This document shows, piece after piece, positions 2,912 through 42,075 of a DNA stretch of 64,000 nt (position 1 is its first letter; every line of letters starts with the position of its first letter). The position numbers were made by a program, and so were the translations under genes. The notes beneath the pieces are model-generated. The model saw only the letters and a list, made by a program, of their open reading frames with translations. It did not search any database and was not told where the DNA came from. The stretch comes from a bacterium (lineage in GTDB: Bacteria > Planctomycetota > Planctomycetia > Planctomycetales > Planctomycetaceae), in assembly GCA_016124895.1 (NCBI GenBank), contig WGMU01000003.1:1-64000 (forward strand), written 5' to 3'.

Positions 2912-4378
<1,467 letters not shown>

Positions 4379-4395
4379 TGTGATCAGTTTTTCCT

Positions 4396-4989
4396 TCAGT
4401 TGTTGTTATTGCCCTGTTGAAACAGGCTGGAGACCGGAACTGAGAATCCAGGAAGCTGAGTTTCTGCGGTTAACGGATCATCCCCAGAGAACATGACAGG
4501 AGTGCCGTGCGGGGTAATCGCTGTCACCGTTTTAAAGTGCGGATCAACAATCCAGACAAGCTGCGTGCCGGCTGCCAGGTACAGGTCGGCCTTCTGCTGA
4601 ACACGTTCCTGGGTGTCTGACGGCGACAGAATCTCGACGGCCAGGACCGGAGGCCCCTTAATGAAACGGGAATTCGGAGCCTGCTCAGCCAGTCGTTCTG
4701 CCGAAAACAGGGCCACGTCGATTCCGACAGAGGATTCCACGCCGTCAACCGTCAATTCACATCCGACTTCGCCGCTGAAAACGTTCCCAACGGAGACTTC
4801 CTGTTCGGCGGCCCAGTTTCCCAGCAGTCGCGCAATTGTCGCCTCAACAATCGCGTGCCAGCGGTTGCGCTTCGTCATTGGTTCCTCCACGAGCACACCG
4901 CGAATGAGCGAACGATCAATGCCGTCGTCTTCTGGCAGAGTGTAAAACTCTTCCAGCGTCATCGGTTTTGTGGAAACGGCTGTGGCCAT
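4396..4989 (-). CDS. Uma2 family protein (PD-(D/E)XK nuclease fold, DUF820)
   Basis: The 197-residue protein has the Uma2/DUF820 signature: N-terminal MTLEEFYTLPEDDG, an E-containing first strand (RGVLVEEP), then SSVGIDVALFSAERL, PPVLAVEILSPSD and the LYLAAGTQLVWIVDP strand. The family has a restriction-endonuclease-like fold but no settled function, and is expanded in cyanobacteria and Planctomycetota. The ATG at 4989 is chosen because GGAG lies just upstream; a GTG six codons earlier (5007) is also possible. It sits between a PfkB kinase and gnd on the same strand, which suggests co-transcription but not a shared pathway role. Confidence 0.88.
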   Translation of the reverse strand: MATAVSTKPMTLEEFYTLPEDDGIDRSLIRGVLVEEPMTKRNRWHAIVEATIARLLGNWAAEQEVSVGNVFSGEVGCELTVDGVESSVGIDVALFSAERLAEQAPNSRFIKGPPVLAVEILSPSDTQERVQQKADLYLAAGTQLVWIVDPHFKTVTAITPHGTPVMFSGDDPLTAETQLPGFSVPVSSLFQQGNNNN

Positions 4990-5073
4990 AATCGACTCCA
5001 GTGACACCAGGGGCAGGAACGTGCGGAGGTCAATTCTCCGCCCATTCCATCGTCCCGGAATCTCAGCACCGAC

Positions 5074-7944: not shown

Positions 7945-8541
7945 TCAGCCGCTGTTTGGACGCATCAACAGGGCGAGCTGTTCGAGCCGGCTCCGCAGTG
8001 CTGTCCGGGAAATCCCCAGCAACTCGCTCGCCTGTACCTGATTGCCGTATACGTGGGCGAGCACTTCTGCGCGGACAACTCGATTGGCGCCTTACAGAAC
8101 GCGACGGCAGATCTCGGCGAAGTCGTCGCTGCGGAATGAGGCTCCGTCCGCTGGCGAAAGCGGCAGCAATGGGGACAGCGTCCGAACAATTTCCCGATAC
8201 GGGCACGAAGAGTCAGCGAGTGCTGCGCCGCGGCTGTTGTAAAACACACTCGCTGGCACTTCGTGCTTGTATGGCAACTCGGAGAGTTGCTTCGGACGCG
8301 TTCCTGAATCACGGAAACAGCGAGCACGGCGATCATCAGCACTCCAGCAACAACTGCAGCCACCACAATCTGGTTGACGCGATGCGCCAGCAGAGTCCGG
8401 GACAGCCTGAGGCGAACCTTCCGGCGCGGGCGTCGGCAGCTCCGGCGCAGACGCGGTGGCCTCTGGAGAAACGACGGCAGCCAACCGGTCCGTGGCGCCG
8501 CGTCCGACGAATTGGAACAGCCTGGTGACTTGCCTGGTCAT
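7945..8541 (-). pseudogene. Decayed gene with NtrC-type Fis-like DNA-binding C-terminus
   Basis: On the minus strand the end of this frame encodes EVLAHVYGNQVQASELLG followed by ISRTALRSRLEQL, nearly identical to the last helices of the NtrC-type regulator at 13569-15026 (ISRTTLRSRIEQL there). The match extends upstream into RRV, but a TAA stop at 8092-8094 sits where the intact copy has Gln. Upstream the same frame stays open to an ATG at 8541 without recognisable receiver or AAA+ domains. A separate frame there encodes a hydrophobic helix (start near 8366), suggesting an additional frameshift. A palindromic repeat (8203-8266) lies inside. I read this as a gene relic; the boundary is approximate. 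Confidence 0.5.
8203..8266. repeat. Palindromic repeat with 20-bp arms
   Basis: GCACGAAGAGTCAGCGAGTG (8203-8222) pairs with a near-perfect inverted copy at 8247-8266, with 18 of 20 positions complementary. It sits within a degenerate stretch. Its right arm (CACTCGCTGGCACTTCGTGC) has the look of a dispersed planctomycete repeat, but I cannot count genomic copies from this window. Confidence 0.6.
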
Positions 8542-35466: not shown

Positions 35467-35630
35467 CGTGAGCTGCTCCGTTCTGAGTCACTGAGTCCTG
35501 GTGCGGTGGCCACTGAATGCGAAAAAGTATCGTCTTTCTCACCGTGATTCCGCTAAGAAGGCACCTGAGCGGGGTGATCGAGCTGTTTCCGACAATTGCG
35601 CCCTGTTCTGTACCAGCCTGGAGCAGGATC

Positions 35631-38600
35631 ATGCCGACTTCCGACAACCAGCGGCCACAGCGATCGGACATACCAGAAGACGACGGTCAGACGATCGCGG
35701 ACGATTCTTCGCTGCCTGTCGACGATGGCCAGACGGTCCATGACACTGCGGCCGATCTGGACACCGCTGACCGGCACTCGGCCGTGACCGCCAGTCAGGA
35801 CTCCGACAACGACCGGACACTGATGGATCCGTCGCTCGTCAGTGACGAACGGGCCGCCGATTCGACGGCAGAACAGCACGGCGATCAGACGATCGTCGAG
35901 GACGCAGACAGTCACGCCCAGGCCTCAGCAGTCGACAGTGATCAGTTTGACGCAACGCTGATGGACGCCAGCCTCGCGCAGCGAAGGATGCCGGTCCCCG
36001 CTGCCGATCGGATTTCGAATTCTCATCAACCGTTCATTCCGCAGTCTGATGACGATGCACAGACATTTGCGGATGCCGATCTCAAGTTACGAGAACCGGC
36101 GGAATCTGATTCGTCGATTTTCGATCGGACTCTGCCCGACCAGACATTCGCGGATCCGTCAGACAGCGAATCTCAGCCAGCCGGGACTGACTTCGATCAG
36201 ACAATTGCCGACCACTCTCAAGCGGACGCAGCAGAGCCGGATGCGACTATTGCTGATGCCTCGGCTCTGCACGAAACGAACGCGACCGTCGATGACGCGT
36301 CGTCGCTCGATCAGGACAACGCAACGCAGTTCGATGCCGGCCTTGCCGCCGGTTCGGACCGGACAATGATCGAAGGTGACTCGACCGCCGATACTGACGC
36401 GACTCGGCACGACAGCCCCACGGGCCAGAGCGAATTCGATCGGACGATGGTCGAAGACGAATTCACCAGCGGCGGGACGTCGGTCGAAGGGCCGTCGTCC
36501 GGCGGCGATGTTGACGTGACTATCGTTTCACGCGACGACCAGTTCGCCTCGGCGGCTTCCTCGGCGGCGAGGCCGCGTCGTTCGGCACCGCCTCCGAAGC
36601 AGCGCCGGCCCGCTGCTCACGAGACCGCCGACCGGTGGGAAGCGCAGCAGCGTTATCAGCTCGTCAGTAATTTCGCCCGCGGCGGTCTCGGTCAGATCTG
36701 GCTGGCTCAGGACAGTCGCCTGCGTCGCGAAGTGGCCTACAAGGAGTTGCTGCCCAGCGCGCTGAAAAACAAGAACGCCCTCGAGCGGTTTCTCGAAGAA
36801 GCGCAGATCACCGGACAGCTTGAGCACCCTGGCATCGTGCCGATTTACGACATCGGCTATCAGCAGAACGGGACACCGTTCTACGCGATGAAACTGGTCC
36901 GCGGCGAAACGATGGAGAAGCACATCGACGCGCTGCATCAGCTTCCGAAGGACAGCCCCGAATTCTCACTGACGTTCCGCAAGCTGCTCCGCAACTTTAT
37001 CGATATCTGCAACGCGCTGGCCTTCGCGCATGACCGCGGCGTCCTGCATCGCGACCTCAAGCCGCTCAACGTGATGCTCGGCGCGTTCGGCGAAACGCTG
37101 GTTCTCGACTGGGGCCTCGCGAAAGTGCTCGACGTTGAAGTCGGCGATAACGACGCGGCTCCGATCACGACTGAAACCGACGGTGGTTTCAGCGTCGACG
37201 AACAAACCGTCATTCAGTCATCAGATGGTTCGAGCGAGTCGGGAGACACGCAGGGCACGACCGCAGCAAGTGGAATCAGTCGGGCTGGAGCGACGCAGGG
37301 CGCGACAACGTCCGGCGCGTCGATGGGCGGCCGGACGCAGCAGATGAGCGGCACTTTTGGCACAACGCGGCGCATGATCGTCACCGATGTCCGCTCAGTC
37401 GGCAGCCAGACCATGATGGGTTCGGTAATGGGCACGCCGGCGTACATGCCGCCCGAACAGGGACGCGGCGATCTCGAACAGCTCGACGCGCGCAGCGACA
37501 TCTATTCGCTGGGAGGAATCCTCTACAAGCTGCTGACGAATCAGCAGCCGATTGCGAAAGGCAAGATTCGCGAGGTGCTGAAAAACGTTACCGAAGGCAA
37601 CATCATCCCACCGCGGGAACACGACCCCGGTGTGCCGAAACCGCTCGAAGCCGTCTGCCTGAAAGCGTTGTCGAAGAACAAGGAGGACCGTTACGCGAGC
37701 GCGCTCGACCTGGCCCGCGATGTCGAAGCCTGGCTCGCCGACGAACCGGTGTCGTGCTTCGAGGATCCGTGGCTGGTCAAGGCGTGGCGCTGGGCTAAGC
37801 GGCATCCGACGGCAGTTGGGAGTGGAGTCGCTGCAGTGACCGTTGCCCTGCTCGCTTACGGAACGGTCCGCTGGAACCACTCAGCCCGGATGAACGACAT
37901 TCGCGACTTCGCGCGAGCGAACCTCAGTCAGGCCGAGACGGCCGCGACGCAGTCGGACTTCGCGCAGTCGAAGCAGCTTCTGACGGCAGCGATTGGACGT
38001 GTGAGTGGCGAAGGAGATCTCGTCGACCTGCTCGGTTCGCTCGAAAGCCGGCTATCGCTGCTGGAATCGGACCGTGTGCGGAAACTCGAACGCGACGTCG
38101 AAACTGACCTCGCCCGCGCACGCACGCAGATTCGCAATGGCGAGTACGAAGCAGCGCGGACACTGCTGGCTGAACTGCAGACGCGGCTGAAAGACGAAAC
38201 GTTGCTGCCGGAACTCACGGCGGCTGTCGAGCGGGAAGTGGCGGCGGCCGACCAGGCGATCGCTCGTGAAGCCGCCGTCGCGCAGACGGAAGCCCGCTTC
38301 GAGCAGTTTCTGGAACTCTGCGACGCGGCCCGCGCGCGAGGTTCGCTGCAGACAATGGACAACGTGGACGATGACGCCAGGCTCGCGCAGAAACACGCGA
38401 CCGCGGCGCTCGAACTGTTTGACCTGAATACCGGCCAGCCGTTCGCAGACACGCCGGACTACTTCGACGAGTCGCTGCCCTGGACGCGGCGGTACAACGA
38501 ACGCACCGGCCGCTGGCCGCTCGCTGAGTTGAAGTCCAGTACGCTGGAACTGCTGCTGATTCTTGGCGACATGGAGATCCAGCTCGCGCGGAATCTTGAT

Positions 38601-40310
38601 GCTGAGCAGCAGAAAGCCGCGGCAGAACGAGCACTCACGTTTATACAACCGGCGAAGTCGATCGGTATCGAATCCGTCGCGCTGTACGGCGATGAAAGCC
38701 TGTGGCTGAAGCTGGCCGGTCGCGAGGACGAGTCGCGTCAGGTGCTTGCTCAGGCCAAGAAGCTCAAGGCAACGACATCGCTCGATTTCTATCTGCTTGC
38801 CGAAGCCGAACGGAAATCGAACAACTTCCGCAAGGCACTCGAACTCTACCAGCAGGCGCAGCAGCTCAGCCCGACCAGCTACTGGCCGCAGCACTTCACC
38901 GGGCTGTGCCACATGCAGCTTGGCGAGGCCGAAGCGGCGCTGGCCTGCTTCACGAACTGCACCAGTCTGCGGGAAACGTACGCCTGGCCGTGGATGCTGC
39001 GCGGCGTCTGCAACGCGCAGCTCAAACGCGTCGATGCCGCGCTGGCCGACTTCGACACCGCCGAGAAACTCGCCCCTGACCTTTACAACATTCCGGTCAA
39101 CCGCGGTGTCGTGCTGACTGTCGCCGGCCGGTTCGATGAAGCGATCGCTCAGTTTGAACGAGCTGCGAAGCTCGCGCCGACCGCGGCTGCGCCGCACATC
39201 AACATTGCGACCACGCACTTCCAGATCGCTCAGCGGATCGCGGATTCCCTGCCGCCTTTCGACAATCTGTCAGATCTCGAACGGCTGCAGCAGGAGCAGG
39301 ACCACTACAGTCAGTCACTCGATGCCCTGGCCGTCGCCGCAGCCACCGAACGAGCGCCGGATCATCCCGGAATTTATCAGCTTCGTGGCCGCATCGAAGA
39401 ACGCAGTGGTAACACGCAGGCCGCACTGGCCAGCTATCAGCGGCATCTGCAGGTGGAGCCGAACACCGACGCCCGCGCTTTAACGCTGCACCGGATCGGC
39501 AGCATCCACTTCCAGCTCGCTGAATACGACGCAGCACTGACGGACTTCGAGAAAGCGCATCAGCTCAAGCCGAGCGACGCCCACATCGTCCGTGATCTGG
39601 CGGAAACGCATCTGCAGTTGCGTCAGGCGGAACAGGCGCAGCAGCGGTTCGACGAGTACCTCAAGCTGGTCAACGCCGACATCGAAGAACATCTCGGCCA
39701 TCCGGACATCGTCTTCAACGGGATGGCGACTGCCGAAAACCTGCAGCGGAAGAAGGCCAAAGCCGCCGACTACTACACGCTCTCGCTGATGTTCAATCCC
39801 GAGCAGGCTGGCGTGCTGTCTCAGCGCGGCTGGCTGTTTCTGACCGACGGCCTGCAACTGGCGAAGGCCGACTTCGAAGCCGCCGTCGCCCGCAATGGCA
39901 ACGATCCACACACGCTGACCGGCCTGGCGCTCACGCAGACACGACTCGGCGACTGGCAGTCCGCGTTGAAAACGATGGAGCCTGCTCTGCCGGCCGCGAC
40001 TGAACAGGCTCAAGAAGTTGGCCCGCCAGCCTTCGCTCTGTTCCACAACGCCGCGACGGTTTACGCGCAGTGCATCGCACTGATTCAGCGCGATCCACGT
40101 CTGAACGATGAACAGCGAAAGACTTCAGTCACGGCTCTGTACCACCAGGTCGAACTGCTGCTGAGAAAAGCGAAACAAATCGCCGCTCCCTCGCCGCCCG
40201 TCCTCCGAGCCATGCAGCAGGCCGTGAAAGTCGAACCCGAATTCGCCCCTCTGCGGTCCATGCCCGAGTTCCAGGCTCTGCAGAGTGAACTGCTCGGCGA
40301 GAGTCAGTAG
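35631..40310 (+). CDS. Giant membrane Ser/Thr protein kinase with N-terminal T-x-x-D/E array and C-terminal TPR repeats
   Basis: 1559 residues from the ATG at 35631 (GGAGCAGGATC upstream); the frame runs 38 codons further. Residues 1-330 are disordered and carry at least a dozen D-x-T-hydrophobic-x-D/E motifs (QTIADD, RTLMDPS, ATIADAS). The kinase domain is about 341-700: ARGGLGQIWLAQD (glycine loop), AYKELLP (Lys), HRDLKPLNVML (catalytic loop) and DWGLAK in place of DFG. An unusual Gly/Thr/Ser-rich insert of about 100 residues precedes the GTPAYMPPEQ motif. A transmembrane helix lies near 722-746 (VGSGVAAVTVALLAYGTV). The rest holds a coiled-coil segment and many TPR repeats (about 1050-1420). 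The kinase faces the cytoplasm; which side the TPR part occupies depends on topology. Confidence 0.92.
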   Translation: MPTSDNQRPQRSDIPEDDGQTIADDSSLPVDDGQTVHDTAADLDTADRHSAVTASQDSDNDRTLMDPSLVSDERAADSTAEQHGDQTIVEDADSHAQASAVDSDQFDATLMDASLAQRRMPVPAADRISNSHQPFIPQSDDDAQTFADADLKLREPAESDSSIFDRTLPDQTFADPSDSESQPAGTDFDQTIADHSQADAAEPDATIADASALHETNATVDDASSLDQDNATQFDAGLAAGSDRTMIEGDSTADTDATRHDSPTGQSEFDRTMVEDEFTSGGTSVEGPSSGGDVDVTIVSRDDQFASAASSAARPRRSAPPPKQRRPAAHETADRWEAQQRYQLVSNFARGGLGQIWLAQDSRLRREVAYKELLPSALKNKNALERFLEEAQITGQLEHPGIVPIYDIGYQQNGTPFYAMKLVRGETMEKHIDALHQLPKDSPEFSLTFRKLLRNFIDICNALAFAHDRGVLHRDLKPLNVMLGAFGETLVLDWGLAKVLDVEVGDNDAAPITTETDGGFSVDEQTVIQSSDGSSESGDTQGTTAASGISRAGATQGATTSGASMGGRTQQMSGTFGTTRRMIVTDVRSVGSQTMMGSVMGTPAYMPPEQGRGDLEQLDARSDIYSLGGILYKLLTNQQPIAKGKIREVLKNVTEGNIIPPREHDPGVPKPLEAVCLKALSKNKEDRYASALDLARDVEAWLADEPVSCFEDPWLVKAWRWAKRHPTAVGSGVAAVTVALLAYGTVRWNHSARMNDIRDFARANLSQAETAATQSDFAQSKQLLTAAIGRVSGEGDLVDLLGSLESRLSLLESDRVRKLERDVETDLARARTQIRNGEYEAARTLLAELQTRLKDETLLPELTAAVEREVAAADQAIAREAAVAQTEARFEQFLELCDAARARGSLQTMDNVDDDARLAQKHATAALELFDLNTGQPFADTPDYFDESLPWTRRYNERTGRWPLAELKSSTLELLLILGDMEIQLARNLDAEQQKAAAERALTFIQPAKSIGIESVALYGDESLWLKLAGREDESRQVLAQAKKLKATTSLDFYLLAEAERKSNNFRKALELYQQAQQLSPTSYWPQHFTGLCHMQLGEAEAALACFTNCTSLRETYAWPWMLRGVCNAQLKRVDAALADFDTAEKLAPDLYNIPVNRGVVLTVAGRFDEAIAQFERAAKLAPTAAAPHINIATTHFQIAQRIADSLPPFDNLSDLERLQQEQDHYSQSLDALAVAAATERAPDHPGIYQLRGRIEERSGNTQAALASYQRHLQVEPNTDARALTLHRIGSIHFQLAEYDAALTDFEKAHQLKPSDAHIVRDLAETHLQLRQAEQAQQRFDEYLKLVNADIEEHLGHPDIVFNGMATAENLQRKKAKAADYYTLSLMFNPEQAGVLSQRGWLFLTDGLQLAKADFEAAVARNGNDPHTLTGLALTQTRLGDWQSALKTMEPALPAATEQAQEVGPPAFALFHNAATVYAQCIALIQRDPRLNDEQRKTSVTALYHQVELLLRKAKQIAAPSPPVLRAMQQAVKVEPEFAPLRSMPEFQALQSELLGESQ

Positions 40311-40351: not shown

Positions 40352-40516
40352 GTAGGCAGGTTTTTCCAAAACCTGCAGATGCGCAGAGCTGACCTTCAAG
40401 CAAGTCACCTGCCTTCCGACGGAGTATCAGCGAGCCGACTCCCGCAATGCCGACTGAGACAGTCAATTCAGCCCGTGATCTGCCGACATGCCAGTTTCGG
40501 AGAAACTGGCCTACGG
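40352..40516. repeat. Bipartite inverted palindromic repeat (BIME-like)
   Basis: The left unit has GTAGGC and the hairpin GCAGGTTTT-TCC-AAAACCTGC (40356-40376). The right unit is an inverted relative: GCCAGTTTC-GGA-GAAACTGGC (40490-40510), then CTACGG. The same pair recurs at 46985-47166. It follows the giant kinase gene. Confidence 0.7.
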
Positions 40517-40590
40517 CTGAGGCACACGACTGGCCAACCGATCGAGTATCCTATGCCAGACCCGTCACGCCGTACCGGGGCCGTCCGACA

Positions 40591-42075
40591 ATGACCTCAA
40601 CCCCCCAATCTGACCAACGGCCGTCAGCCGATCCGAAACGGCTCCGGTGGTATCGGCGCCCGTGGGTCCTTCTCTCACTGACCGGTCTGGCGCTTCTTGC
40701 CAGCACGCCGTTCGCGATCCGCGGCTACCAGCTTTCGCTGATCCCAGACATCGCGGATCCGTTTGCTGATCTGCCGCCGGTCCGGATGCCTCCTGAAAAG
40801 ACGGACGAGGTTGTCGAGCGGTTTGTCAACGACATGAAAGAAGTCGGCCGCGCGGTTGACGACGTCGTCAGTGCCGAAGAAGGATTCGCATTAGAGACGC
40901 GCGACCTCTATTACCGGAACTTCGATGAAGAGATCCGTGCAGCAACCGAGCAGGGACTCGCGGTTGCGACTCCTCGGGTCCGGAAGTATCTGGACGACCA
41001 CGAATTCGTCATTCAGGAAGGGCTCGCTGCGCTGAGACGTGTCGGCGATGGAGCGAATCCCGGAGAGGTCTACTATGGGATCGGTCGGTACTACCCAGAC
41101 ATCCTGGGACTCAGCATCCAACGCCTCCTGCAAACCGGTGATGCCGATGAGGCTGTTGATCTGCTTATCCAGGTGATCGACGCGGTCGAGAATACCAAGT
41201 GGTATTGTGACGTCGGACGGTATGCGGGAGAAGACTGGTCTCATCGACTGGGCACGCGAGTCCAACTCTGGAAGCTGGCGGCTCGTCTGTCGGAACTTCC
41301 GGGTTTTGGTGAAGAACACATACGGAGATTACTTGCCAGCACGCGATCGCTTCAGCCGATCTCGCTGGACGCTCAACTGGAGTTGGTCCACGCCAGTTAC
41401 CTGGAAGATCGCGAAGAATACGAAGACGATTTCTGTTACTGGGCGTGTGCCGAATATCTGTCTCTGCCGCAGTCCGTCGGTCGACCAGCCGCATTCGTCC
41501 TGGGTGAGCCTGAACTGGCACGCAGAATCCTCAAACATTTCTATGCGCGGTACCGAACACAGATTGAAGTCCCCCGTCCGAAACGCGGCGTACTTCGTGA
41601 GTGGTCCTTTGCGGATGACGCCGACTGGATTTCCGACTCCGTCACCAAAAACGAATACGACCTAATGGTCGAGACGGCGGCGAGACATTCGCCGATGTTT
41701 TGTATGGATGGTGCTTCAATTCAAGGCTGGCTGCTCGGATTCGATGCGGAAAGCAAGTGGATCAGGCAGCTTCAGACCGTCGTGGCCTGCCAGCTCCACC
41801 TGCGGCGAACAGGTTCGCTCCCTCCCGACCTGGAATCGCTCGTTCCTGATTACCTTCCCGAGATTCCGATCGACTCTTTCTCACCAACCGGCGAGGCGAT
41901 GATCTACCGATGCGATGGAGCAGAAGCCGAACTCTATTCGGTTTGGCGGAACGGTGTTGACGACGGTGGAATTCGTCAGCCCGGTGAAAAGCGACGAGGG
42001 AACGATGACAGAGGTTTCATCATTCGTGACCGGATCAGCTCACGGGGCGACGGTGAATTGGAGATATCCAAGTGA
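40591..42075 (+). CDS. Membrane-anchored protein of unknown function
   Basis: 494 residues from the ATG at 40591 (MTSTPQSDQ). The longer frame would cover a palindromic repeat and is rejected. A single N-terminal transmembrane helix (WVLLSLTGLALLASTPFAI) follows a basic stretch, leaving a roughly 440-residue helical domain. The C-terminal segment VVACQLHLRRTGSLPPDLES and LVPDYLPEIPIDSFSPTGE looks like a motif I associate with planctomycete pseudopilin-like or DUF proteins. The function is unknown. Its TGA overlaps the GTG start of tsaE (GTGA), so translation is probably coupled. Confidence 0.72.
   Translation: MTSTPQSDQRPSADPKRLRWYRRPWVLLSLTGLALLASTPFAIRGYQLSLIPDIADPFADLPPVRMPPEKTDEVVERFVNDMKEVGRAVDDVVSAEEGFALETRDLYYRNFDEEIRAATEQGLAVATPRVRKYLDDHEFVIQEGLAALRRVGDGANPGEVYYGIGRYYPDILGLSIQRLLQTGDADEAVDLLIQVIDAVENTKWYCDVGRYAGEDWSHRLGTRVQLWKLAARLSELPGFGEEHIRRLLASTRSLQPISLDAQLELVHASYLEDREEYEDDFCYWACAEYLSLPQSVGRPAAFVLGEPELARRILKHFYARYRTQIEVPRPKRGVLREWSFADDADWISDSVTKNEYDLMVETAARHSPMFCMDGASIQGWLLGFDAESKWIRQLQTVVACQLHLRRTGSLPPDLESLVPDYLPEIPIDSFSPTGEAMIYRCDGAEAELYSVWRNGVDDGGIRQPGEKRRGNDDRGFIIRDRISSRGDGELEISK

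Follow-up and report, generated by a model that had tools for sequence, protein, structure and literature searches.

A threonine motif array in the N-terminal tail of a giant planctomycete Ser/Thr kinase, a candidate docking platform for FHA proteins

A planctomycete genome carries kinases and FHA domains by the dozen, and at this locus one such kinase has a long tail of repeated threonine motifs at its N-terminus. The gene (35631..40310, + strand, as are all features of this locus given below) lies in the 64,000-nucleotide stretch of DNA analyzed here, referred to as the window, and encodes a giant Ser/Thr kinase of 1,559 amino acids in which a disordered array, a kinase domain, a transmembrane helix, and a coiled-coil/TPR region follow one another (Pfam Pkinase, 4e-27, and TPR families). 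The longer mechanical open reading frame begins at 35517; the likely start codon is that at 35631 (MPTSDNQRP), where the alignment with the same-genus ortholog L165 begins (MSTPNDQQP). The kinase domain (approximately residues 342–705; 36654..37745) scores 95.6 bits against Pfam PF00069 Pkinase (cut-off 31.7), has M. tuberculosis PknB as its closest solved fold and best PDB match, and belongs to the PknB-like bacterial Ser/Thr kinases; it is probably active because the catalytic residues are present (K371, HRD 473, DWG 493, activation-loop T594, and GTPAYMPPE 601). A helix at residues 727–746 (37809..37868), predicted from hydropathy, is predicted to make the array and the kinase cytoplasmic and to leave the TPRs outside, and the C-terminal coiled-coil/TPR region (38211..40307; TPR_1, 5e-33, and related families) is presumed to be a periplasmic sensor part. 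A transmembrane helix after the kinase and a C-terminal TPR array are the hallmarks of the planctomycete kinase–TM–TPR receptor kinases, and the same kinase–TM–TPR/WD40 architecture is known from Planctomycetota STKs with periplasmic TPR/WD40 arrays, of the same lineage (PMC11032199); the passages of that paper covered here describe the C-terminal repeats but contain no N-terminal Thr-motif array. The gene adjoining the kinase downstream (40447–42075, 542 aa) has no Pfam match.

Residues 1–338 (35631..36644) form an acidic, D/A/S/T-rich region (59 Asp, 50 Ala, and 40 Ser). AlphaFold2 predicts no secondary structure for residues 1–340, where pLDDT stays mostly under 40, in agreement with the preliminary description, which had called the N-terminal ~330 residues disordered; it should be noted that the input was a shallow 19-row alignment and that confidence is low for the N-lobe too, for which reason the model serves for disorder alone. 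Within residues 1–338, the motif T-Φ-x-[DE], where Φ is I, L, V, M, or F, occurs 13 times (35685..36455; T21, 35, 63, 87, 109, 145, 167, 172, 191, 206, 219, 245, and 272), against 0.99 expected from 5,000 composition shuffles, none of which reached 13 and the highest of which gave 6. The strict form D-x-T-hydrophobic-x-[DE] is found nine times against 0.17 expected (maximum in composition shuffles, 4). The earlier count of at least a dozen motifs consequently holds for the wider form and not for the strict one; all six examples named with it (TIAD, TLMD, TFAD, TLPD, TVDD, and TMVE) were recovered. The corresponding serine motif, S-hydrophobic-x-[DE], stays at chance level in the same residues, with one occurrence against 1.3 expected (Thr vs. 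Ser motif use in this kinase, Fisher p = 2e-5). Spacing from motif to motif is irregular, from 5 to 36 residues. The motif array in the kinase N-terminus is therefore real, and it combines what would be looked for in an MDC1-like phospho-scaffold: motifs that recur along a disordered segment and are built on Thr and not Ser. No tandem DNA repeat was found in the array region, the short DNA matches there being the motif itself, which rules out an origin by tandem-repeat expansion for the window. Two orthologs (L057 and L059) appear to hold recently duplicated units.

The kinase was matched in 34 of 150 sampled genomes of the family, representing 18 of 58 genera (E <= 1e-60); named genomes gave 80 loci, which in part are the same genes, the relatives being labeled Planctomycetaceae, Planctomyces, or Rhodopirellula. 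The N-termini of close relatives keep the motif, with varying copy number and spacing, and 29 sequences yield the consensus [DE]-x-[AQRHG]-T-[ILV]-[VIMA]-[DE]-[PDG]-S, in which selection for hydrophobic residues at +1 and +2 is strong. Of 85 kinases, 24 stand out as array-bearing against composition shuffles (p < 0.01), and in these 24 the motif is used by 152 of 544 Thr vs. 23 of 661 Ser; since the rows are related, the p-values are indicative only. Between members of the same genus, 11 of 12 motif Thr are retained, vs. 8 of 14 Thr outside the motifs and, for Ser, 14 of 33, and the linkers between motifs are 44% identical. Whether spacing or only the number of motifs is conserved had been the question put to orthologs in the preliminary description: motif and number are conserved and spacing is not, and the array thus withstands the refuting condition named there, a lack of motif conservation in orthologs. 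A number that is kept while spacing is free is the pattern expected of a multivalent platform or a multisite switch.

The motif recurs at a second place in the protein. Between DWG and GTPAYM, the activation segment carries an insert of 93 residues (37125..37403), rich in Thr, Ser, and Gly and predicted to be disordered (pLDDT below 50), with counterparts of 41–182 residues, Thr/Ser-rich and of low complexity, in the orthologs; such an insert is unusual for a kinase activation segment. It contains one array-type copy, DEQTVIQS (residues 523–530; 37197..37220), and a single copy is likewise found in 22 of 27 orthologs, mostly 19–27 residues into the insert (DDQTVMES, DERTILES, and DDHTLAES, among others), and absent from the other five. 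The canonical activation-loop T594 is invariant in the alignment. Bacterial kinases autophosphorylate their activation segment (PMC6428115), and FHA proteins bind at their activation loop (PMC4238996); because the array motif recurs in this segment, the motif common to tail and loop suggests the kinase itself as the writer of the array. In a paralogous kinase (L117, kinase at 8001), the activation-loop insert holds a VAATNIVGSDD-type repeat in tandem, and the N-terminus carries repeats of two further types, T-V-M-G-D and QTRVTRTRFGKTR.

A second giant kinase of the same genome, non-orthologous to the first, also carries an N-terminal Thr array (L201:4309–11427, equivalent to G000 contig C100:17308–24426; 2,372 aa). 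Its layout is kinase, TM, coiled coil, and WD40, and its array consists of approximately 12 copies of D-[DE]-S-[FY]-x-x-T-[MVI]-[QE]-[ST]-[DG]. Relatives were found in 27 of 58 genera, many of them with arrays in further dialects such as KTFVSDE or ATVQSDE. The residue at +3 distinguishes the two families: D/E occupy 132 and S/T 17 of 258 sites in the first (TPR) family, vs. 53 and 108 of 263 sites in the second (WD40) family. Among the 65 kinase/FHA open reading frames of the genome that were scanned, only these two kinases stand out for arrays, which rules out that arrays are a trait of all its kinases. When the whole genome was scanned for the pattern, C134 alone showed clustering among the first 100 of 140 places listed, and the array is unique in the genome for the Asp/Glu dialect only. 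It is at position +3 that FHA domains classically discriminate between ligands, and Rad53-FHA1 selects Asp there through Arg83 (PMC4037201), as the preliminary description had it in naming Asp at +3 a preference of some FHA domains. The two dialects, Asp/Glu at +3 in the TPR kinase and Ser then Asp in the WD40 kinase, may tentatively be read as kinase-specific phospho-Thr barcodes, each with its own set of FHA effectors, an idea that we put forward as possible and short of probable; if true, the barcodes would keep FHA sets apart although this one genome gives some 70 matches to the kinase family along with 24 FHA domains.

The genome (8.1 Mb) gave 74 kinase-family matches, of which some are fragments of a single gene, and an inventory of FHA proteins, already recommended in the preliminary description, returned approximately 24 FHA domain matches. 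These include FHA-GAF-PP2C proteins (L001 and L003), FHA-GAF-cyclases (L016 and L022), an FHA-kinase (L014), an FHA-histidine kinase (L010), and small FHA proteins, the domain names other than FHA being assigned by eye from sequence. At the position equivalent to Arg83 of Rad53-FHA1, the FHA domains of L002, L004, L006, and L007 have Lys or Arg. All 59 of 59 family genomes have one FHA-GAF-PP2C protein (L001:37–1812, contig C13). The surroundings of the planctomycete array kinases, covered to as much as 8 kb in the loci from named genomes and to 1.5 kb in those from sampled genomes, yielded no FHA gene, and FHA number per Mb does not track presence of the kinase (p = 0.14); the correlation of raw counts (p = 0.02) was dropped for this reason. 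Searches of the literature found no phosphoproteome of a relative, and, within the open-access literature, nothing relevant came up on bacterial arrays of this kind.

The closest tie between arrays and FHA domains comes from outside the planctomycetes. In a tree of 87 kinase domains, the main planctomycete clade bears arrays, and so, apart from it, do two kinases of the Verrucomicrobiota (L143:7191–11339 and L144), whose N-termini carry arrays of the DDDYAPTIMEE type (PTIMEE); arrays originated at least twice. Sister to these two are L155:4255–7356 and L164:7518–10709, in which Pfam places an FHA domain N-terminal to the kinase, at the position of the array; the branch joining the four is weak (83/29), whereas the surrounding clade of five rows has firm support (100/99). 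This alternation of array and FHA domain is the strongest tie between the two at the level of sequence. By eye, the FHA domains fused in L155 and L164 have no basic residue at the position equivalent to Arg83. The L143 locus is also the only one of the Verrucomicrobiota where an FHA gene lies near an array kinase, an FHA-cyclase gene being located upstream at 4149–5066, two unrelated genes away; otherwise, synteny of array kinases with FHA genes is essentially absent from the loci covered.

We consider the best reading of these observations to be an autophosphorylated phospho-Thr array in the kinase tail on which FHA proteins dock, and give this model in full about an even chance; taken by itself, the reading of the N-terminus as a phospho-Thr array appears likely to us. 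Input at the periplasmic TPR part would activate the kinase, which would phosphorylate its own activation loop, with the invariant T594 and, in most orthologs, the motif copy of the insert as candidate sites, and then many of the ~13 T-hydrophobic-x-[DE] sites of the tail, in cis or between neighbors. In the cytoplasm, the phosphorylated sites would then offer a multivalent docking surface to effectors with FHA domains, for which the FHA-PP2C phosphatases, FHA-cyclases, FHA-kinase, and FHA-histidine kinase of the genome are candidates. Autophosphorylation, reading by FHA domains, and the output of the array are steps that we infer from sequence. The docking array proposed in the preliminary description accordingly gains from the Thr-only core, the copy in the activation loop, and the FHA domains in the genome and in related kinases, and it loses from the lack of an FHA gene within 8 kb and from an FHA content per Mb that does not follow the kinase.

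The array might also be phosphorylated and have no readers, acting as a multisite autophosphorylation sink that alters charge and, by competition for the active site with substrates or the activation loop, sets a threshold or delay. The motif shared by tail and activation-loop insert, the predicted disorder of the tail, a motif count kept with free position, and the absence of an FHA neighbor gene dedicated to the kinase would all suit such a sink; bulk charge by itself, however, gives no reason to use Thr over Ser, or to fix the +3 residue and yet fix it differently in the two kinases that share this genome, and FHA domains sit at the array position in the sister kinases. On balance we regard a sink as rather unlikely.

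Phosphorylation itself is brought into question by another alternative, in which the repeats are linear motifs that are never phosphorylated, acidic-hydrophobic peptides docking on a folded partner by beta-augmentation or in a groove, with Thr chosen for its strand propensity. The strong selection for hydrophobic residues at +1 and +2 agrees with this, as does the linker between FHA and GAF in the FHA-GAF-PP2C proteins, where a conserved acidic x-T-I-M-G island directly follows the FHA domain. Apart from its Gly at +3, this island looks like the array motif, and to that extent it counts for the FHA-docking model; its I-M-G, though, is conserved better than its Thr (Thr in 23 of 30), which could reflect a non-phospho contact. 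With the flanks of the array motif fixed and position 0 left free, however, Thr fills 71 of 81 frames (9.7 times its share), Ser three, Ala two, and Val one; the second (WD40) family has Thr in 42 of 46, and the two Verrucomicrobiota kinases in 11 of 11. A simple hydrophobic or beta-strand motif would tolerate, and strand propensity would favor, Val or Ile, and because these are nearly absent from position 0 such a motif is disfavored and improbable; the Thr-only position argues for phospho-Thr. FHA domains discriminate pThr from pSer, and BRCT and WW domains do not (PMC3146460), but the Thr preference could stem from a Thr-preferring writer alone. That the motifs are there by chance, or merely follow from the composition of an acidic linker of low complexity or from expanding DNA repeats, has only the biased composition of residues 1–338 in its favor and is refuted, to the point of being hardly credible, by the shuffles, none of which reaches the observed count, by the lack of a tandem DNA repeat, and by the same consensus in orthologs of many genera of the family.

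Phospho-Thr docking has precedents that resemble the proposed array in part. Human MDC1 likewise has a disordered acidic segment with repeated phospho-acceptor motifs, its SDT repeats being phosphorylated by CK2 and read by the FHA-BRCT module of NBS1, with several acting together (PMC8079451); it differs in being a scaffold with a separate writer and the motif S-D-T-D, without homology to the planctomycete kinase, whereas the planctomycete array is part of a bacterial kinase that is presumed to be its own writer. The mycobacterial and corynebacterial pairs of STPK and FHA protein (PknB–GarA and PknQ–MupFHA) share a transmembrane PknB-like kinase, and their FHA proteins engage the autophosphorylated activation loop (PMC4238996, PMC6428115), but a few activation-loop or juxtamembrane sites of the kinase, or one site in the tail of the FHA protein, take the place of a 13-motif array. 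Bdellovibrio DgcB has a Thr in a disordered N-terminal tail and FHA recognition with +3 selectivity, but its single site lies on the FHA protein itself and its +3 residue is Val (PMC6733907). The array would thus be a bacterial counterpart of eukaryotic phospho-scaffolds such as MDC1. A countable, kinase-specific tail of phospho-Thr motifs would give planctomycetes a testable wiring rule for the separation of signals, written in the +3 residue, and the difference in dialect between two kinases of one cell makes this specificity directly testable.
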